Assembly (NCBI GenBank): GCA_013202895.1
Contig: JABMPR010000135.1
Location: forward strand, 1-34,086
Length of the DNA: 34,086 bases
Source of the DNA: a bacterium
GTDB lineage: Bacteria; Fidelibacterota; UBA8477; JABMPR01
Direction of reading: 5' to 3'
Within the stretch, counting starts at the first letter, position 1. Every line of letters starts with the position of its first letter. Made by a program: the position numbers and the translations under genes. Below, one piece after another: positions 1,848 through 19,386 of this stretch. Below the pieces are notes generated by a model that saw only the letters and a program-made list of their open reading frames with translations, ran no database searches and was not told the origin of the DNA.

Positions 1848-2501
1848 TTGAAAAGAAATATGATAGTCGCTGGTAATTGGAAGATGCATTTCGGTCCCAA
1901 GGAGGCCGCAGACTTCGCAGAATCATTACGTATTAATTTATTGGACACCCATGGGGTGTCGGTTATTTTATGCCCGCCATTTTTGGCATTGAAAACGGTT
2001 TTTGACGCAGTATATGGCAGTGAGCTTCAGGTCGGAGCCCAAAATATGCATTGGGAAGAATCTGGAGCGTTTACCGGTGAGATCACTGGAGCCATGATAC
2101 GTGAAACCGGAGCTGAGTATGTGATCCTGGGTCACTCTGAAAGACGCCATGTGTTTGGAGAGAGCGATGAATGGATTAATAAAAAAGTTCACAGGTCTTT
2201 GAAATCAGGTTTGATCCCAATATTTTGTGTTGGTGAACAAATTAATGAACGGGAAGCCAAAGAAACTGAAAAGGTGATCGCCAGACAACTCCGAGAAGGA
2301 CTTAAAAACCTTAGTGAAGCTGATATGGAAACGGTCATCATTGCTTATGAACCAGTTTGGGCAATCGGTACGGGTCACACAGCTACACCAGAACAGGCAA
2401 TAGCAGTTCACGCCTTTATTCGCAGCGCCCTGAAAACCCTGTTTAACGAAAACGTAGCTGAATCCACGTGGATTCTTTATGGTGGGAGTGTCAAACCTTA
2501 A
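1848..2501 (+). CDS. tpiA: Triosephosphate isomerase, truncated by an in-frame TAA
   Basis: TIM interconverts DHAP and glyceraldehyde-3-phosphate. The TTG start lies directly after the pgk stop. Catalytic residues are present: N10 and K12 in GNWKMH, H96 in GHSERR, E168 in YEPVW, followed by loop 6 (AIGTG). The frame stops at 2499-2501 after YGGSVKP (217 aa), but the same frame goes on to code for a standard TIM C terminus up to the TAG at 2613-2615. The full frame would be 255 residues, the usual size. The TAA sits where TIMs normally have Glu (KPEN), so one G-to-T change (GAA to TAA) explains it. The missing part includes the VGGAS phosphate-binding strand, so the 217-aa product is probably inactive unless read through. 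Confidence 0.9.
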   Translation: MKRNMIVAGNWKMHFGPKEAADFAESLRINLLDTHGVSVILCPPFLALKTVFDAVYGSELQVGAQNMHWEESGAFTGEITGAMIRETGAEYVILGHSERRHVFGESDEWINKKVHRSLKSGLIPIFCVGEQINEREAKETEKVIARQLREGLKNLSEADMETVIIAYEPVWAIGTGHTATPEQAIAVHAFIRSALKTLFNENVAESTWILYGGSVKP

Positions 2502-2615
2502 AACACTAAAGGATTATTGTCCGATAAGGACATTGATGGGGCTCTGGTCGGAGGAGCAAGCATGAAACTTGAATCCTTCAAAGGTATCATCGATGAAGCC
2601 GGAGCGATCGAGTAG
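2499..2615 (+). pseudogene. tpiA: In-frame continuation of tpiA beyond the internal TAA
   Basis: From the TAA at 2499 the original tpiA frame remains open for 37 codons to the TAG at 2613-2615. It encodes the expected last beta strand and helix: a DIDGALVGGAS block, then a MKLESF segment and IIDEAG. There is no independent ribosome-binding site or start, so this is the detached end of the preceding gene. The next gene, secG, begins 8 bp later with GGAG spacing that relies on this stop region. The sequence alone cannot tell a sequencing error from a real nonsense mutation or readthrough. Confidence 0.85.
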
Positions 2616-4778: not shown

Positions 4779-6017
4779 ATGAAAAAGCTCGCAATTGCAG
4801 CGATACTGTTAATATCAATTTTGGGACAACTAGTGGCTCAGTACCCCGAGGACCTGGTTGCTGATGCCCGTGAAGCCATTAAGAAATTTGACATCCAGGC
4901 TGCAGACCAGGCCTATAAAGAAGCCATGAAAGCTCCCGGCGTAGATGAAGATGCCTACAAGGAAATTCAAGCGGAATGGCAAATGTTGGAGAAGATCAAT
5001 ATCTTCCTGGCTGACGGTCGTCGGTCTCTTGAGCGTTCAGAATATGATGAATCTGTAAAGAAATATAGTGAAGCCATTGCACAGATGGATGCTTCGCCAC
5101 ATGATATATGGGGCAAGGTCAAAGGTGAGGCCTCTTACAGTAAGGGAATGGTTTATTACCGTCAGGAAAAACCTATTAAAGCAGCCGAAGAATTCAGGAA
5201 CTCAATGGCATATGATGTTGAAGAGTCAAAATTTGGCAAAGCCATTGAGATGGTTAGAAATAAGTATTATAGCGAAGGGCATAAATATTACAAACGTAAG
5301 GACTTTGTATCAGCCAAGAGTCAATACGAAATAGCAGTGGCTGTTGATCCCTCATTTGCCAGTGGCTTTTATCAACTCGCCCTCATCGCAAAAAAGGATG
5401 GCGATCTGAAGCTAGCCGAGAATTATTACCGGGATGCCGTTACCAGTGATCCTACTCACTATAAATCATGGTATGGACTTGGCACCCTGTACAGTGAAAT
5501 GGGAAATAATAGAAAAGCGATCGAGTCTTTGAAAATGTCCATTTCGATTAACGCCGCTTATGAAAAGGCTTATTACGTACTTGGAAAAGTATATGAAGGT
5601 CAAAAGAATGAGAAGCTCGCTATTGATAATCTAAAAAAAGCAGTTGATGTAAACGACAAATATACAAAAGCTTATGAGCTGTTAGCAAAAATTTACAATG
5701 ACCAGGAAAAGTTTGAGACGACGATCTCCCTCTTGAAAGGTTTGACAGGTGACGCTTCTTCGTTCAATACAGATTATCGTCTATCTCAAGCTTACAACGC
5801 CGTACAAAATTATTCAGCAGCCCTTACCTCCGCATCAAGCTCGCTGGTCAAGAAAAAGAACTGGGCACCGGCCCTAATTGAGAAGGGTGATGCCCTACTT
5901 GGCTTAGAACGGAATCGTGATGCGATCGCAGCTTATCGCCTTGCCTCTAAGGATGCTCGCTGGAAAAGTATGGCTGAATACCGCATCAACGAGCTCACTA
6001 ATTGGGAAGGTAAATAG
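4779..6017 (+). CDS. Secreted/periplasmic tetratricopeptide-repeat protein
   Basis: The 412-residue protein has an N-terminal signal peptide (residues 1-20; hydrophobic core AIAAILLISILG, cleavage likely after LVAQ). TPR units fill most of the remainder. Clear ones are at about 160-195 (AKSQYEIAVAVDPSFASG), 196-230 (AENYYRDAVTSDPTHYKSW), 230-265 (AIESLKMSISINAAYEKA), 266-300 and 300-335. TPRs mediate protein-protein contacts; the partner is not evident. The ATG has an AAGGATG site upstream. It is a single-gene unit closed by its own strong terminator. Confidence 0.85.
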   Translation: MKKLAIAAILLISILGQLVAQYPEDLVADAREAIKKFDIQAADQAYKEAMKAPGVDEDAYKEIQAEWQMLEKINIFLADGRRSLERSEYDESVKKYSEAIAQMDASPHDIWGKVKGEASYSKGMVYYRQEKPIKAAEEFRNSMAYDVEESKFGKAIEMVRNKYYSEGHKYYKRKDFVSAKSQYEIAVAVDPSFASGFYQLALIAKKDGDLKLAENYYRDAVTSDPTHYKSWYGLGTLYSEMGNNRKAIESLKMSISINAAYEKAYYVLGKVYEGQKNEKLAIDNLKKAVDVNDKYTKAYELLAKIYNDQEKFETTISLLKGLTGDASSFNTDYRLSQAYNAVQNYSAALTSASSSLVKKKNWAPALIEKGDALLGLERNRDAIAAYRLASKDARWKSMAEYRINELTNWEGK

Positions 6018-6044
6018 CGGCATATTTACCAGGAATATTTCTAT

Positions 6045-6074
6045 AAAAAGGCTGTCTTAGGGACAGCCTTTTTT
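6045..6074 (+). terminator. Rho-independent terminator of the TPR gene
   Basis: A perfect 12-bp stem AAAAAGGCTGTC (6045-6056) / GACAGCCTTTTT (6062-6073) with a five-base loop TTAGG runs into a T tract. It lies 28 bp after the TPR stop codon. Confidence 0.9.
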
Positions 6075-6213
6075 GTTAATATCAAGTTTTCAAAATATAC
6101 ACATTTTATTTTTATTTTGGTAAAACCAAGTTACGTCCCACTGAGACTTTTTAGGTGAACTGAAGTTAAGATTCCACTTTTCCCATTGCCACTGGGGAAT
6201 AAATTAAAGACTA

Positions 6214-6573
6214 ATGACAGTTAAAGGAATAGGCGCTGATATTGTTGAGGTGAGCCGCATTAAACGACTGCGAGAAACTTATGGAAGTCGTTTTTTGGGG
6301 AAGGTTTACACAAAAGGTGAGATAGCCTATTGTGAATCAAAAGAACACCCCGAGATTCACCTTGCTGGTCGCTTCGCAGCTAAAGAAGCGATTGCCAAGG
6401 CAGTCTATTTGAGTGGATATGATAAGCTAATCCCCCTATCCGATATCGAGATTCTTAATGACGATGAAGGCAGACCTCAGGTATCATTGTTGACCCAGAT
6501 TCGAGGCACCTGCATGGTCTCTATATCGCATGAACACTCAATGGCGATCGCTTTCGCGGTTCTGGAGTCCTGA
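6214..6573 (+). CDS. acpS: Holo-[acyl-carrier-protein] synthase
   Basis: AcpS transfers the 4'-phosphopantetheine arm from CoA to acyl carrier protein. The 119-residue length is typical. Signature motifs are GIGADIVEVSRI (Mg-binding Asp at position 9) and GRFAAKEAIAKA near residues 52-63 (Mg-binding Glu and CoA-binding region), plus SISHEHSMAIA near the C terminus. It opens the long plus-strand operon; its ribosome-binding site is weak. nnr follows four bases after the stop, a common acpS-nnr pairing. Confidence 0.95.
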   Translation: MTVKGIGADIVEVSRIKRLRETYGSRFLGKVYTKGEIAYCESKEHPEIHLAGRFAAKEAIAKAVYLSGYDKLIPLSDIEILNDDEGRPQVSLLTQIRGTCMVSISHEHSMAIAFAVLES

Positions 6574-6577
6574 TCTC

Positions 6578-8128
6578 ATGAGACCATTCCTCTCCGTCGC
6601 AGCCAATCGGGCTGTGGATGATTATGCCATCAATCACTGTGGCATACCAGGTGAAATTCTGATGAAAAATGCCGGGACTGCGGTTGTCAGTCAGATGGAT
6701 GCCAATGGTTATCTCCAGAATTCGCCCGAGGTGTTGATTATCACGGGAAAAGGTAACAACGGTGGTGATGGTTATGTCATCGCAGCAGAACTTATCCAAA
6801 GAGCCTTTAAGGTCTCATTGATTATGGTAGCCGAAGAAAAAAGCATTCAAGGGGATGCCCTGCGCCACTTTCAACGCTTAAGTGATCTTGATTTACATAT
6901 TAGTGAATGGAAGAATACCCTGGAGCAACAGCAAAGGATCCAGGCGGTAGACATCATCGTCGATGCTTTGTTTGGGACCGGTATCAGCGGAGAAATAAGA
7001 GAACCTTATACAGAGATCATTAACAATTGCAATCGCAGCCAAGCACATATCATTGCTGTCGATGTTCCCTCAGGTGTTAGTGGAAATAGGGGTGATGTCT
7101 TGGATCCATGTATAAAAGCTGATCTTACAGTGAGTATGGGTTATGGCAAACTGGGTTGTCTTTTTGAACCTGCTCGAAGTCATTGCGGGAAAGTAGTTAC
7201 GGTTGAAATTGGTTTCCCAGATGATTCATTAGAACATATCGATGAACCGGTACTTTCTGAGGTAACTGCTGAGGATTTCCCCTCATCTGCATTCACACGA
7301 TTAGCAGATGCACATAAATACTCATCTGGAAAGATTTTTATAATTGCCGGTTCTCCAGGATTTACCGGCGCGGCGATCCTGGCATCCACTGCCGCCCTGC
7401 GGTCCGGAGCTGGTTTAGTAAAATTGGCGCTTCCCGAGTCCCTGGGACACATTGGTGAAAATGAATCTTTGGAAACGATCATAGAGTATTTGCCTGAAAC
7501 ACAGGAGCAAAGTTTTTCACTCTCTGGCTATTCAGCCTTAAAAACAAGTTGCGATTGGGCTGATTCCGTTGTCATAGGACCCGGGATTGGCAGGCATCCA
7601 GAAACCCAAAATCTGGTCAGAAAGTTGATCGCAAATATTGAACGGCCTCTGGTTATTGATGCTGATGCTCTATTTGCTTTGACAGGCAACTTAGATATTT
7701 TAACAAAAAGGAAATCTCCAAGCATATTAACACCCCATCTTGGTGAATTTAAGCGCTTACTTGAAATGGATAATGGATATGCTCCCAACTGGGAGGATGG
7801 ACTAAAATTTGCCCGTGAATATGGCGTTTATTTGCTCCTTAAGGGCGCTCCTTCAATTCTCGCTTCGCCAAATGGAAGTATCAGTGTCAACTCATCAGGC
7901 TACTCTGGAATGGCTACAGCAGGGAGTGGGGATGTTCTCAGCGGGCTTATCGCATCGCTGTGGGGGCAATGGAACAAGCTCCCGGAAGTATTTCAGTTAG
8001 CTATATTTATCCACGGAAAAGCTGCTGAGCTGAACCGCCCGGATAAAGGCGTATTGGGTCTTATAGCAAGTGATATTGTAAATTCATTGCCGCTAGCCTT
8101 AAAGGATTACGGTGGCTTACCGACTTAA
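6578..8128 (+). CDS. nnr: Bifunctional NAD(P)H-hydrate epimerase / ADP-dependent NAD(P)H-hydrate dehydratase
   Basis: This enzyme repairs hydrated NADH/NADPH. The N-terminal YjeF_N domain (about 1-215) epimerises the S/R hydrates, and the C-terminal carbohydrate-kinase-like domain (about 235-510) dehydrates the S form using ADP. Motifs seen are GKGNNGGDG near residue 57, DVPSGV near 165, and AHKYSSGKIFIIAGS opening the dehydratase domain. GPGIGRHPE, LTPHLGEF and ATAGSGDVLSG (nucleotide/metal loop with catalytic Asp) follow. I choose the ATG at 6578 (516 aa), with GGAG ten bases upstream. An upstream in-frame ATG at 6530 would overlap acpS and adds non-conserved sequence. Confidence 0.95.
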   Translation: MRPFLSVAANRAVDDYAINHCGIPGEILMKNAGTAVVSQMDANGYLQNSPEVLIITGKGNNGGDGYVIAAELIQRAFKVSLIMVAEEKSIQGDALRHFQRLSDLDLHISEWKNTLEQQQRIQAVDIIVDALFGTGISGEIREPYTEIINNCNRSQAHIIAVDVPSGVSGNRGDVLDPCIKADLTVSMGYGKLGCLFEPARSHCGKVVTVEIGFPDDSLEHIDEPVLSEVTAEDFPSSAFTRLADAHKYSSGKIFIIAGSPGFTGAAILASTAALRSGAGLVKLALPESLGHIGENESLETIIEYLPETQEQSFSLSGYSALKTSCDWADSVVIGPGIGRHPETQNLVRKLIANIERPLVIDADALFALTGNLDILTKRKSPSILTPHLGEFKRLLEMDNGYAPNWEDGLKFAREYGVYLLLKGAPSILASPNGSISVNSSGYSGMATAGSGDVLSGLIASLWGQWNKLPEVFQLAIFIHGKAAELNRPDKGVLGLIASDIVNSLPLALKDYGGLPT

Positions 8129-11713: not shown

Positions 11714-13066
11714 ATGAAGAAAAAAATCGTCATTGTGGGTGCAGGTAGCGTTGGATTTTATCTTGCGAAAACGCTGGCCGCTCTGGGAAATGATATCAGT
11801 ATCATCGATAATGATCCAGAGAAAGTCCTCAGGGCAAAACAGGAATTAGATGCGCTGGCAATTGAAGGAAATGGTGCTCAATCCAGTATCCTCGAGGAGG
11901 CTCAGGTCGAGTCCGCAGATCTATTCCTGGCAGTGACTCGTATAGATGAGATCAATATTGTTGCCTCAATGAAAGCATATAAAATGAATCCACAAGCTAA
12001 GATCCTGACGCGGGTGCGAAGTGGAGATTATCAGGAAAAAAATGCCCTTCTGGATCTGAAAGAATTGGGAATCGAAATGGTAATCAATCCGGAAGAGATT
12101 GCCGCCCGAGAAATCCAGCATCTGGTCCAGCATGCCACAGCTCAGGAAATCATGACCTATAGTCAGGACCGAGTATATATGGTTGCACTGACCCCAACCG
12201 ATACATGTGATATCATGCATAAATCACTGAGGGAATTGGGTAAACAATATGATGAACTTCCTTTTAGGACGGTTGCTATTGATCGGGAGGGAACGACAAT
12301 CATTCCCGGTGGAAACCATGTATTTCAACCCGGTGATAAAATTTTTGTGGTATGTTTAAAGGATGAGCTAAAAGAAATGTATCGTCTGTGTGGTTTCAGA
12401 CAAAAAAAAATGATTAAATCTGTGATGATTATGGGAGCTGGAAAATTAGGAAGGCTTGTGGCTGGCAAATTAAAAAATCAATTTAGTGTCCGTCTGGTTG
12501 ATCATCGTAAGGAAAAGCTCCTAAAAGCAGCCAAAGAACTTCCGGATGTGCTCATGCTACATGCAGATGGTCTGGACATCGATTTCCTTGAAAGCGAAGG
12601 GATAGGGGACTTTGGTGCATTGATTACCCTGACCGATGATGAAACCACCAATCTTTTTGCCGGTCTGATTGCCAAGAAAAAAGGAGTCCAAAAAGTTATC
12701 GTTCATATCAATTCACCAGACTATCTCCCACTGGTCAAGGGTCTGGGTATCAACTCTGTAGTAAGCAAAAATCTGTCAACAGTGGATGCTTTTATGCGCT
12801 ATGTAGTCAAGGGACGGGTCCATTCGGTGATGATGTTGGAAGGTATTGATACAGAGGTGATTGAATTGTCTCCGTCGCCCAATAGCAAGATTATCGGAAA
12901 ACCGCTGGCTGAGATCGATTTTCCCCCGGATGCAGTTGTTGGAGGTGTGATCCATCCAAATGGTGAGGAGATCGCAACTGGGAAGAGCATCATCAATTTA
13001 GGTGATCGCGCCATAGTTTTTGCCAGAGCATCCAGAGTGAGCGATGTTGAAGCACTATTCAACTAA
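11714..13066 (+). CDS. trkA: Trk system potassium uptake protein TrkA (NAD-binding regulatory subunit)
   Basis: This cytoplasmic gating subunit of the TrkH potassium channel is 450 residues long. It has two RCK units. The first has Rossmann motif GAGSVGFYLA (9-18) with IDNDPEK. The second begins near residue 235 with GAGKLGRLVAGKL. Each is followed by a TrkA-C domain, the last ending around IGKPLAEIDFPPDAVVG. The ATG follows ltaE by 2 bp, and the 3' end overlaps trkH by 23 bp, indicating tightly coupled expression of the two subunits. Confidence 0.95.
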   Translation: MKKKIVIVGAGSVGFYLAKTLAALGNDISIIDNDPEKVLRAKQELDALAIEGNGAQSSILEEAQVESADLFLAVTRIDEINIVASMKAYKMNPQAKILTRVRSGDYQEKNALLDLKELGIEMVINPEEIAAREIQHLVQHATAQEIMTYSQDRVYMVALTPTDTCDIMHKSLRELGKQYDELPFRTVAIDREGTTIIPGGNHVFQPGDKIFVVCLKDELKEMYRLCGFRQKKMIKSVMIMGAGKLGRLVAGKLKNQFSVRLVDHRKEKLLKAAKELPDVLMLHADGLDIDFLESEGIGDFGALITLTDDETTNLFAGLIAKKKGVQKVIVHINSPDYLPLVKGLGINSVVSKNLSTVDAFMRYVVKGRVHSVMMLEGIDTEVIELSPSPNSKIIGKPLAEIDFPPDAVVGGVIHPNGEEIATGKSIINLGDRAIVFARASRVSDVEALFN

Positions 13067-16392: not shown

Positions 16393-17412
16393 ATGTCATT
16401 ATCATTGAACTGGTCAGTCAAACGTTTAACCACCAAATTTGAATTCAAGATCGCTCGCAGCGCAGAGACCTACTACGATTCAGTTATTCTCGAGTTGTCC
16501 GATGGGACTCATACGGGTTTCGGTGAGTCGCTACCTAATAAACGATATGAGAACGGTGCTGATGCTGTGTGCGCCCTTCTAAACCAATTCAAGTCCAAAA
16601 TATTGGATCTTCCTGTGGCGGACTATGAGTCGAGACAGTCAGCCCTGGAAAATCTTTTCCCCACAAGTTTTTCCTTACAAGCTGCAGTTGACACGGCATT
16701 CTGGGATCTTCAAGGGCAGATTGCACAGAAACCGCTCTGGAAGCTATTTGGCGCACAGAAAAAAATGGTAACCTCTTCTTACACAATCGGCATCTCCGAT
16801 CTAAATATTATTCCAGAAAAGATCAGGGAAGCTACACCTTATTCATTACTCAAGATCAAGCTGGGTACAGATTATGATCACGATATTATTCGTGCTATCC
16901 GGGCTGAAACCGATAAAGTGCTACGGGTGGATGTTAACGAAGGCTGGAAAACGCTTGATGATGCCAAGCGTGGAGCGGAATGGTTGGCTGAGGAGAATGT
17001 AGAATTTCTGGAACAGCCAATGCCGGCTAATCAACTGGATGATATTGCCAAATTGTATGAATTTTCACCCCTTCCCCTGGTGGCGGATGAAAATTCTGTC
17101 CGCCCAGAAGACATTCCGGGGTTGGTTGGGGCCTATGATGGTATCAATATCAAGCTGATGAAATGCGGCGGGCTGACCAATGCTCGAAAAATGGTGGACC
17201 TGGCACAGCAATATAATTTTGATATTATGCTGGGTTGTATGCTTGAATCATCCGTGGGTATTTCAGCTATGGCACAGTTGGGCTCATTTGCCAAATGGCT
17301 AGATCTGGATGGAAATGTCCTTATATCAAATGATCCATTTATGGGTGTTAGAAACGAATCGGGAGAAATGATTTTATCAGAGAAACCGGGTCTGGGCATT
17401 GCTCCTCGTTAA
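16393..17412 (+). CDS. dgcA: Enolase-superfamily dipeptide epimerase / N-acetyl-D-glutamate racemase (DgcA-like)
   Basis: The 339-residue protein carries the muconate-lactonising subgroup catalytic set. KIK (K154, K156) is on one side and K254 in IKLMKCGG on the other. Metal ligands are D180 (RVDVNEGW), E207 (LEQPMP) and D232 (VADENS). LDLDG (D304, D306) is the pattern of dipeptide epimerases that bind the substrate amino group. It could epimerise L-Ala-D/L-Glu from peptidoglycan or racemise N-acetyl-D-Glu made by the upstream DgcN-like enzyme. The ATG at 16393 has GGGGAG upstream and starts 1 bp after the dgcN stop. Confidence 0.85.
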   Translation: MSLSLNWSVKRLTTKFEFKIARSAETYYDSVILELSDGTHTGFGESLPNKRYENGADAVCALLNQFKSKILDLPVADYESRQSALENLFPTSFSLQAAVDTAFWDLQGQIAQKPLWKLFGAQKKMVTSSYTIGISDLNIIPEKIREATPYSLLKIKLGTDYDHDIIRAIRAETDKVLRVDVNEGWKTLDDAKRGAEWLAEENVEFLEQPMPANQLDDIAKLYEFSPLPLVADENSVRPEDIPGLVGAYDGINIKLMKCGGLTNARKMVDLAQQYNFDIMLGCMLESSVGISAMAQLGSFAKWLDLDGNVLISNDPFMGVRNESGEMILSEKPGLGIAPR

Positions 17413-17458
17413 TGGAAAAATCCAATTCACAAAGATCAGATTCTGCAAGGAGATAGAT

Positions 17459-18973
17459 TTGAGAGCAAACACAAAGATCATTATTATCACTATTGTAGCC
17501 ATAATGGTAATTAACTGCAGTACCAACACTCCTTTTTCTACATCTGTTCCAAAACAGGAATTCAGACGCAGCTCACAGGAGCAGGCGGCATACATGATTG
17601 ATACACTTTTAAATCAAGCCCCGACTGATATGGGTTGGTGGGGTGTAAAAATCCAATATGCCAGATCTGGAGAAGTGATCTACGAGCGGAATTCTGCAAA
17701 ATTGTTCATGCCTGCTTCCAATATGAAAATGTACACAACTGCTGCAGCCCTTTGTCTTCTGAATCCGCAGTACCGTTATGAAACCGATTTTGTGACCAAT
17801 GGAAGCATTGATGAGGAGGGAATCCTTAATGGAGATCTGATGATCAAAGGCAGCGGGGACCCAAGCTGGTCTTGGCGTTTCTATGATGGAAATTACGACT
17901 CGGTTATGGTGCGTTTTGTTGATTCATTAAAGACCAGAGGTATTAGCGGGATCAATGGAAATATCATAGGTGATGACAATGTGTTTGATGATGTAGCCCT
18001 GGGTTATGGTTGGGCCTGGGACGATGAAGCCTATTATTATGCAGCCCAATTATCAGGTTTATCATATAGCGAAAACTATATCGATTATATACTTACACCT
18101 GATTCGGTGAATCTGGGGAGTCCGGTTATCATTGAACCACACCCCCGGACAACATACATGAATTTACGAAATGATCTCATTACAGTAAGCAGCGATAGCT
18201 CGACAGATTGGGATTATGGTCGTGAGCGTGAGACCAATAATGGATGGTTTGAAGGGGAATATCGAATACAGAGTGGTGAGGTGGAGGAAACCATAAGCAT
18301 TAATAATCCTACTCTATATACGGTGCACGTGCTCAAGGAGCGGTTGGAAGAGGCAGGCATCAATGTCAGTGGTGTACCAAAAGATGTCGATGATTTAGAG
18401 GATACCCTGAACTATGCGGCAACCCAAAAACTGTTTACCTATTATTCTCATCCTATGTCTGATATCATCTCAAAGGTGAACCGACCCAGCCAAAATTTCA
18501 TTGCCGAAACCCTTCAGAAAACATTAGGTGCTGAATTTGGAAAAGCTGGATCCTCCAAGCAGGGACGGAAGGTACAGATGGCTCTATACGATTCACTTGG
18601 TATGGATACTAAGAACCTGCAATTACGCGACGGTTCAGGCTTATCCAGACACAATCTGGTTTCTCCCAATACATCCACTTCACTCTTACAGATGATGTGG
18701 GATCATCCCTATCGCAGCTATTATATCGAATCTTTCCCACTCTCAGGTGTGACAGGGACCATTCGCAAACGTACCCTTGGTAGTAGTGCTGAAGGCAATG
18801 TCAGGGCCAAGACGGGTTACATTGGCTATGTCCGGTCATTAAGCGGCTATACTTGGACCCAGTCCGGGGAACCACTGATTTTCTCAATAATGGTGAATCA
18901 TTATACCATTCCAACCTGGCAAGTGAATAATATTCAGGATCGGATCGTAACCGTTCTTTCGGATATGGAGTAG
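17459..18973 (+). CDS. dacB: D-alanyl-D-alanine carboxypeptidase/endopeptidase, PBP4 (DacB) family lipoprotein
   Basis: This periplasmic peptidase S13 enzyme trims or cleaves peptidoglycan cross-links. The three penicillin-binding motifs are present: S-x-x-K as PASNMK (S87, K90), S-x-N as RPSQN near residue 345, and K-T-G as RAKTGYIG near 458. The TTG at 17459 has AAGGAG six bases upstream and gives 504 residues. The first 20 residues are an export signal ending VINC, a lipobox-like site with unusual Asn before Cys20. An upstream TTG at 17399 would overlap dgcA and prepend non-signal sequence. Its position after the dgcN-dgcA pair suggests peptidoglycan-peptide turnover. Confidence 0.9.
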   Translation: MRANTKIIIITIVAIMVINCSTNTPFSTSVPKQEFRRSSQEQAAYMIDTLLNQAPTDMGWWGVKIQYARSGEVIYERNSAKLFMPASNMKMYTTAAALCLLNPQYRYETDFVTNGSIDEEGILNGDLMIKGSGDPSWSWRFYDGNYDSVMVRFVDSLKTRGISGINGNIIGDDNVFDDVALGYGWAWDDEAYYYAAQLSGLSYSENYIDYILTPDSVNLGSPVIIEPHPRTTYMNLRNDLITVSSDSSTDWDYGRERETNNGWFEGEYRIQSGEVEETISINNPTLYTVHVLKERLEEAGINVSGVPKDVDDLEDTLNYAATQKLFTYYSHPMSDIISKVNRPSQNFIAETLQKTLGAEFGKAGSSKQGRKVQMALYDSLGMDTKNLQLRDGSGLSRHNLVSPNTSTSLLQMMWDHPYRSYYIESFPLSGVTGTIRKRTLGSSAEGNVRAKTGYIGYVRSLSGYTWTQSGEPLIFSIMVNHYTIPTWQVNNIQDRIVTVLSDME

Positions 18974-18976
18974 GCT

Positions 18977-19386
18977 ATGCGAGTAAAAAAATAAGTCATA
19001 TCGCTGTTGCGGGGAATGATGTCGACCAAAGCCGGATTCTGTATCAGGACATCCTGGGTCTTGATTTCAAGGGCTCAGAATTGGTTGAACGTGAAGGTGT
19101 GACAACCCATTTTTTTAATGTTAGCGAGTCTGCAATAGAAATCCTGGAGCCTTTATCAGAGGATACCTCCGTTGCAAAATTCTTATCCAAACGCGGTCCT
19201 GGTCTTCATCATCTGGCATTGGAAGTTGAAGGTTTGGACGAATATGTGCAGAAACTCAAAGCTGCTGGTATCACTCTGCTAAATGATGAGCCCCAACCAG
19301 GTGCACATGGGATGCGGATTGTTTTTATTCATCCGAAGTCTACCGGCGGAGTTCTGCTCGAATTGTGTGAGAAAATTAAAACTTGA
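18977..19386 (+). CDS. mce: Methylmalonyl-CoA epimerase (VOC family), apparent one-base frameshift near the start
   Basis: The protein interconverts (R)- and (S)-methylmalonyl-CoA in propionate metabolism. The main frame (no ATG/GTG/TTG until TTG 19081) reads KKISHIAVAGNDVDQS, then YQDILGLDF, GPGLHHLALEV and GVLLELCEK. The metal-ligand His (SHIAVA), His (LHHLA) and Glu (LLELC) are all in place. The natural ATG at 18977, 3 bp after the dacB stop with GGAG upstream, encodes MRVKK and then hits TAA because the A tract has seven As. With eight As it runs straight into KISHIAVA and gives 136 residues, the normal size. Starting at 19081 would lose the first metal ligand. The likely causes are an assembly indel, a real frameshift, or transcriptional slippage. 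Confidence 0.85.

Follow-up and report, generated by a model that had tools for sequence, protein, structure and literature searches.

A one-base frame break at the start of a methylmalonyl-CoA epimerase gene, most probably due to faulty assembly or a random mutation

Background

Frame breaks comparable to the one described here for the methylmalonyl-CoA epimerase gene mce fall into two kinds, those ascribed to error or mutation and those that are, or may be, corrected during expression. Among the former, the GeneTack singleton frameshifted genes (PMC3711429) are likewise known from one genome each, validated by homology and Pfam, and interrupted by a single indel in an otherwise intact gene. 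They were assigned to sequencing error or recent indel, and the mce case differs from them in nothing essential, though its site happens to be a slippery heptamer. In the same source, unclustered frameshifts validated by BLASTp are expected to be sequencing errors and not genuine indels (Antonov et al. 2013, PMC3711429). Our search for literature on indel errors in metagenomes found none.

Among the corrected cases, the poly(A) frameshifts of Blochmannia and Buchnera (PMC3017870), which are possibly corrected by slippage, resemble mce in carrying a single A-tract indel in an intact conserved gene; however, those genomes have many A tracts of at least nine bases, whereas mce has a tract of seven in an assembly of 3.59 Mb and is known from its sequence alone. 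In tssM1 of Citrobacter rodentium (PMC4256274) an A run also lies beside a premature stop and extra As restore the long product, but there the run has eleven As and the correction is experimentally proven, while in mce seven As occupy codons 4-5. Programmed -1 frameshifting on A_AAA_AAA in magnesium chelatase genes (PMC3711429) and IS elements (PMC4066793) uses the same heptamer in the same phase as mce; these sites nevertheless belong to groups of related genes, whereas the mce site occurs in one assembly only and adjoins the start codon. Title-level literature searches combining epimerase with frameshift, and Marinimicrobia with frameshifting, returned respectively no report on recoding of mce among the matches listed and nothing related.

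The mce start region

The window analysed here is an entire contig of 34,086 bases (C95) of a fragmented, metagenome-type assembly (3.59 Mb in 362 contigs, 87.7% complete). The preliminary description had placed an ATG preceded by GGAG three bases after dacB, with a reading of MRVKK and then a stop, and had noted that eight As in place of seven would join it to the epimerase start; the coordinates in Table 1 confirm the frame break, with the epimerase body one frame back. The dacB stop TAG (18971-18973) is followed by GCT (18974-18976) and directly by the ATG, and the two genes are probably translationally coupled.

Table 1. Features of the dacB-mce junction and of tpiA in the window
Feature	Coordinates	Strand	Remarks
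tpiA, triosephosphate isomerase	1848..2615	+	in-frame TAA 2499-2501; frame runs on to TAG 2613-2615
dacB-type D-Ala-D-Ala carboxypeptidase (S13)	17399..18973	+	Pfam Peptidase_S13, 319.6 bits
GGAG, Shine-Dalgarno-like	18967..18970	+	within the end of dacB; 6 nt 5' of ATG, 14 nt 5' of the A7 heptamer; from sequence
Natural ATG start opening a short ORF in the 0 frame (MRVKK-stop)	18977..18994	+	ATG CGA GTA AAA AAA TAA
A7 tract, 0-frame A_AAA_AAA (-1 slippery heptamer)	18985..18991	+	TAA directly 3'; from sequence, motif per PMC4066793
Methylmalonyl-CoA epimerase body, -1 frame, intact	18991..19386	+	131 aa plus stop; Pfam and PDB matches

The epimerase frame opens with ATA (ISHIAVA...) and contains no ATG, GTG or TTG ahead of a TTG at 19081, from which initiation would cost the first 30 residues, including a conserved His. 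This His is residue 3 of P0001, and query position 1 aligns with residue 10 of the structure 1jc4, which brings it to chain position 12 if the alignment is ungapped; His12 of 1jc4, close to the N terminus, is the first of the metal-binding His residues. The body scores 81 bits against Pfam Glyoxalase_4 (cut-off 27) and matches the methylmalonyl-CoA epimerases 3rmu, 6qh4, 6wf6 and 1jc4 of the PDB over its whole length. The peptide read across the rejoined start and epimerase frames would be MRVKKISHIAVA.

Comparison with other mce loci

An in-frame start lies at most 15 codons upstream in 82 of 83 mce loci, the window being the sole exception; the other 82 include some duplicates (contigs L031-L033 repeat L004, L006 and L009, and L062 and L063 are on one contig). 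Since all the other loci start in frame, the break in the window is not a chance feature of the reading. Eighteen genomes of the same genus were searched, of which three gave no mce match, and each of the 15 that did has its start in frame (12 ATG, 3 TTG). In these 15 genomes the start sits a few bases past the upstream gene, whose product ends in -ME or -MD before the stop, as that of dacB does in the window. The junction, in which the start signal falls within the final codons of the preceding gene, looks conserved in all 15. The mce match of a distant relative (G055) was flagged for an internal stop but proved on re-reading to be an intact ORF, and the viral contigs scanned for mce yielded no relative.

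The preliminary description had raised conservation of the A tract among orthologues: the tract is not conserved in the 15 same-genus loci, whereas the junction is. A run of seven or eight As nevertheless occurs in frame at the same spot in eight other loci (L016, L021, L022, L029, L053, L057, L224 and L230), and the tract therefore stems from the lysine-rich start. One of them, L016 of genome G017, reads TTG CGA GTT AAA AAA ATA AGC, that is seven As in frame. It had been suggested that eight As were the original state; an eighth A does restore the frame, but given the GTT of L016, the sequence in the window can equally be derived by loss of an A from a run of eight or of the T from GTT, the two histories being equally short.

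Private changes at invariant sites were used as the measure of constraint in place of dN/dS, as synonymous sites were saturated. Of 56 columns that do not vary among the other 15 species, the window departs at two (range 0 to 7 over the 16 species), and at both a same-family outgroup (L018) carries the residue of the window. The mce body is intact, with neither the further lesions nor the relaxed constraint expected of a pseudogene, and the gene is not decaying. It is present in a single copy in the genome, where its mutase partner has two matches, both free of stops.

A stop codon in tpiA and a census of lesions

A second lesion in a conserved gene of the window had also been reported, and it is real: tpiA carries an in-frame TAA. 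Nineteen tpiA loci of relatives were examined, two of which (L233 and L249) lack a readable site; in all 17 readable same-genus loci the corresponding codon is a sense codon (GAT in 8, GAC in 6, GAA in 2 and GAG in 1), and a single substitution turns GAA into TAA. A TIM barrel without its last 38 residues should be inactive, and tpiA is the only TIM-family match detected in the genome. Its truncation is consequently hard to accept as real, since a single-copy housekeeping gene would have lost its last 38 residues, and both lesions are explained more economically by consensus error. The suspicion of sequence error voiced in the preliminary description is thereby strengthened.

Lesions were counted by homology to the ORFs of relatives over 73.9 kb of homologue-covered sequence, made up of 18.4 kb of the window and 55.5 kb on five further contigs; the remaining 15 of the 20 contigs sampled from the genome had no homologue coverage and were uninformative. 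This census replaced a frameshift scan based on codon usage and the Viterbi algorithm, which was too weak and missed both lesions. With the other flags judged by eye, only tpiA and mce stood out in the 73.9 kb as lesions without a simpler reading, and no comparable unexplained lesion was found in the 55.5 kb outside the window. The contrast between two lesions in 18.4 kb and none in 55.5 kb is weak and suggestive only, as the lesions were the reason for choosing the window. Several of the flagged stops and missing starts, among them those at 6213, 13038 and 15279 of the window, at 12678 and 13466 of L089 and at 8046 and 17150 of L090, looked by eye like extended starts or shadow ORFs arising from the reference frames.

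A further gene lacks a recognisable start in all three genomes of the genus in which it was seen (L092 at about 5755-6843 on the minus strand, L210 and L211), with no ATG, GTG or TTG near its beginning. By eye it resembles an M20-type peptidase; all three retain an in-frame ATT, and in each a nearby out-of-frame ATG runs into a stop after a short distance. The missing start is common to two relatives and is therefore not a private lesion; from the three sequences, a conserved non-standard start is possible.

In ORFs of at least 150 codons, a sample biased by the choice of ORFs for being open, 23 runs of at least seven As were counted. A_AAA_AAA occurred in frame 11 times in the sampled ORFs, against an expectation of 16.1 (sd 3.6) set by 100 synonymous shuffles; it is thus not enriched, and there is no sign of its general use in the genome.

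Origin of the frame break

As none of the relatives examined shares it, the frame break most probably stems from faulty assembly or a random mutation, and not from a biological device. We regard a consensus error, or a rare variant captured in the assembly, as probable though well short of certain. On this account the consensus would be missing a base within codons 3-6 of mce, either from an error of base calling or assembly or from a rare variant; in the organism mce would start at ATG 18977, coupled to dacB by the GGAG in the end of dacB, and its product would be an ordinary methylmalonyl-CoA epimerase. The sequences show the break itself, an otherwise intact epimerase body, in-frame starts at every other locus examined and a further disabling change in single-copy tpiA on the same contig; we infer that the cells do not carry the break and that the gene is probably intact in the organism. 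It counts against this account that homopolymer frameshifts are not widespread in the sample, although the ORFs counted were chosen for being open. A genuine one-base deletion in the sampled population, recent and disabling, which would leave little or no product in an incipient pseudogene or a standing variant, seems unlikely. A-tracts have been named as possible indel hot spots (PMC4066793), and the intact body would fit a very recent event; against this, the gene is single copy, has an intact mutase partner and is kept in 15 of 18 same-genus genomes, and by this reasoning tpiA would also have to be a genuine pseudogene, an implausible state for a glycolytic enzyme with a single gene copy. 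Initiation within the epimerase frame from a non-standard codon, for instance the ATA at 18991, is very improbable. The peptidase-like gene without an ATG, GTG or TTG near its start in three of three genomes means that unusual starts may occur in the genus, but this ATA sits 20 nt from GGAG, and an ATG, GTG or TTG is found a few codons upstream in all 82 other loci.

We consider it decidedly unlikely that a real deletion leaves the gene working at a reduced level, with full-length epimerase made either through a -1 slip on A_AAA_AAA before the TAA or through occasional addition of an A by RNA polymerase. The heptamer is in exact register with the 0 frame, the stop follows directly, and a -1 slip yields MRVKK-ISHIAVA in the conserved frame; this fit is weak evidence, however, because losing any A from a run of eight makes the same heptamer. 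In E. coli, 10% frameshifting was obtained with an A_AAA_AAA cassette taken from a magnesium chelatase cluster (PMC3711429), and the motif is rated above 0.10% without stimulators (PMC4066793); on these efficiencies, some full-length enzyme would be likely if the deletion were real. The lack of decay in the epimerase body is a further point in its favour, as may be the GGAG at 14 nt upstream of the heptamer, a candidate stimulator that is, however, the start signal of mce itself. On the other side, the frameshift site occurs in none of the 82 other loci (0/15 in the genus), and no stable downstream structure was found in a folding comparison with shuffles that covered structures other than pseudoknots (z 0.44 and 1.31). 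The preliminary description had proposed that transcriptional slippage could restore the frame in vivo. In a large share of genomes, selection against slippage typically becomes evident at nine As, although this varies by organism (PMC1088944), and a tract of seven is below the nine typical of transcriptional slippage; given also that the tract is not conserved and that seven or eight As stand in frame at this spot in eight other loci, this route is possible but unsupported. If the gene is rescued at all, ribosomal -1 frameshifting would fit the sequence better than slippage of RNA polymerase. It is improbable that a real, private frameshift at codons 4-5 places mce under recoding, with the slipping minority of ribosomes arriving from dacB giving a low dose set by translation.

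Implications for annotation and assembly

If the deletion were true and rescued, mce would represent start-proximal corrective frameshifting in an uncultured phylum. Under the favoured reading, a consensus error or a rare variant, the two lesions call for caution, as both mce and tpiA would be left out or shortened when this genome is annotated automatically, and such an annotation would suggest a broken methylmalonyl-CoA route and broken glycolysis, which is probably false for the organism. Elsewhere in the assembly, two contigs of the same bin overlap at 79% DNA identity (C257:1-616 of G000 with L096:1-616), which suggests a paralogue or contamination from a related species.
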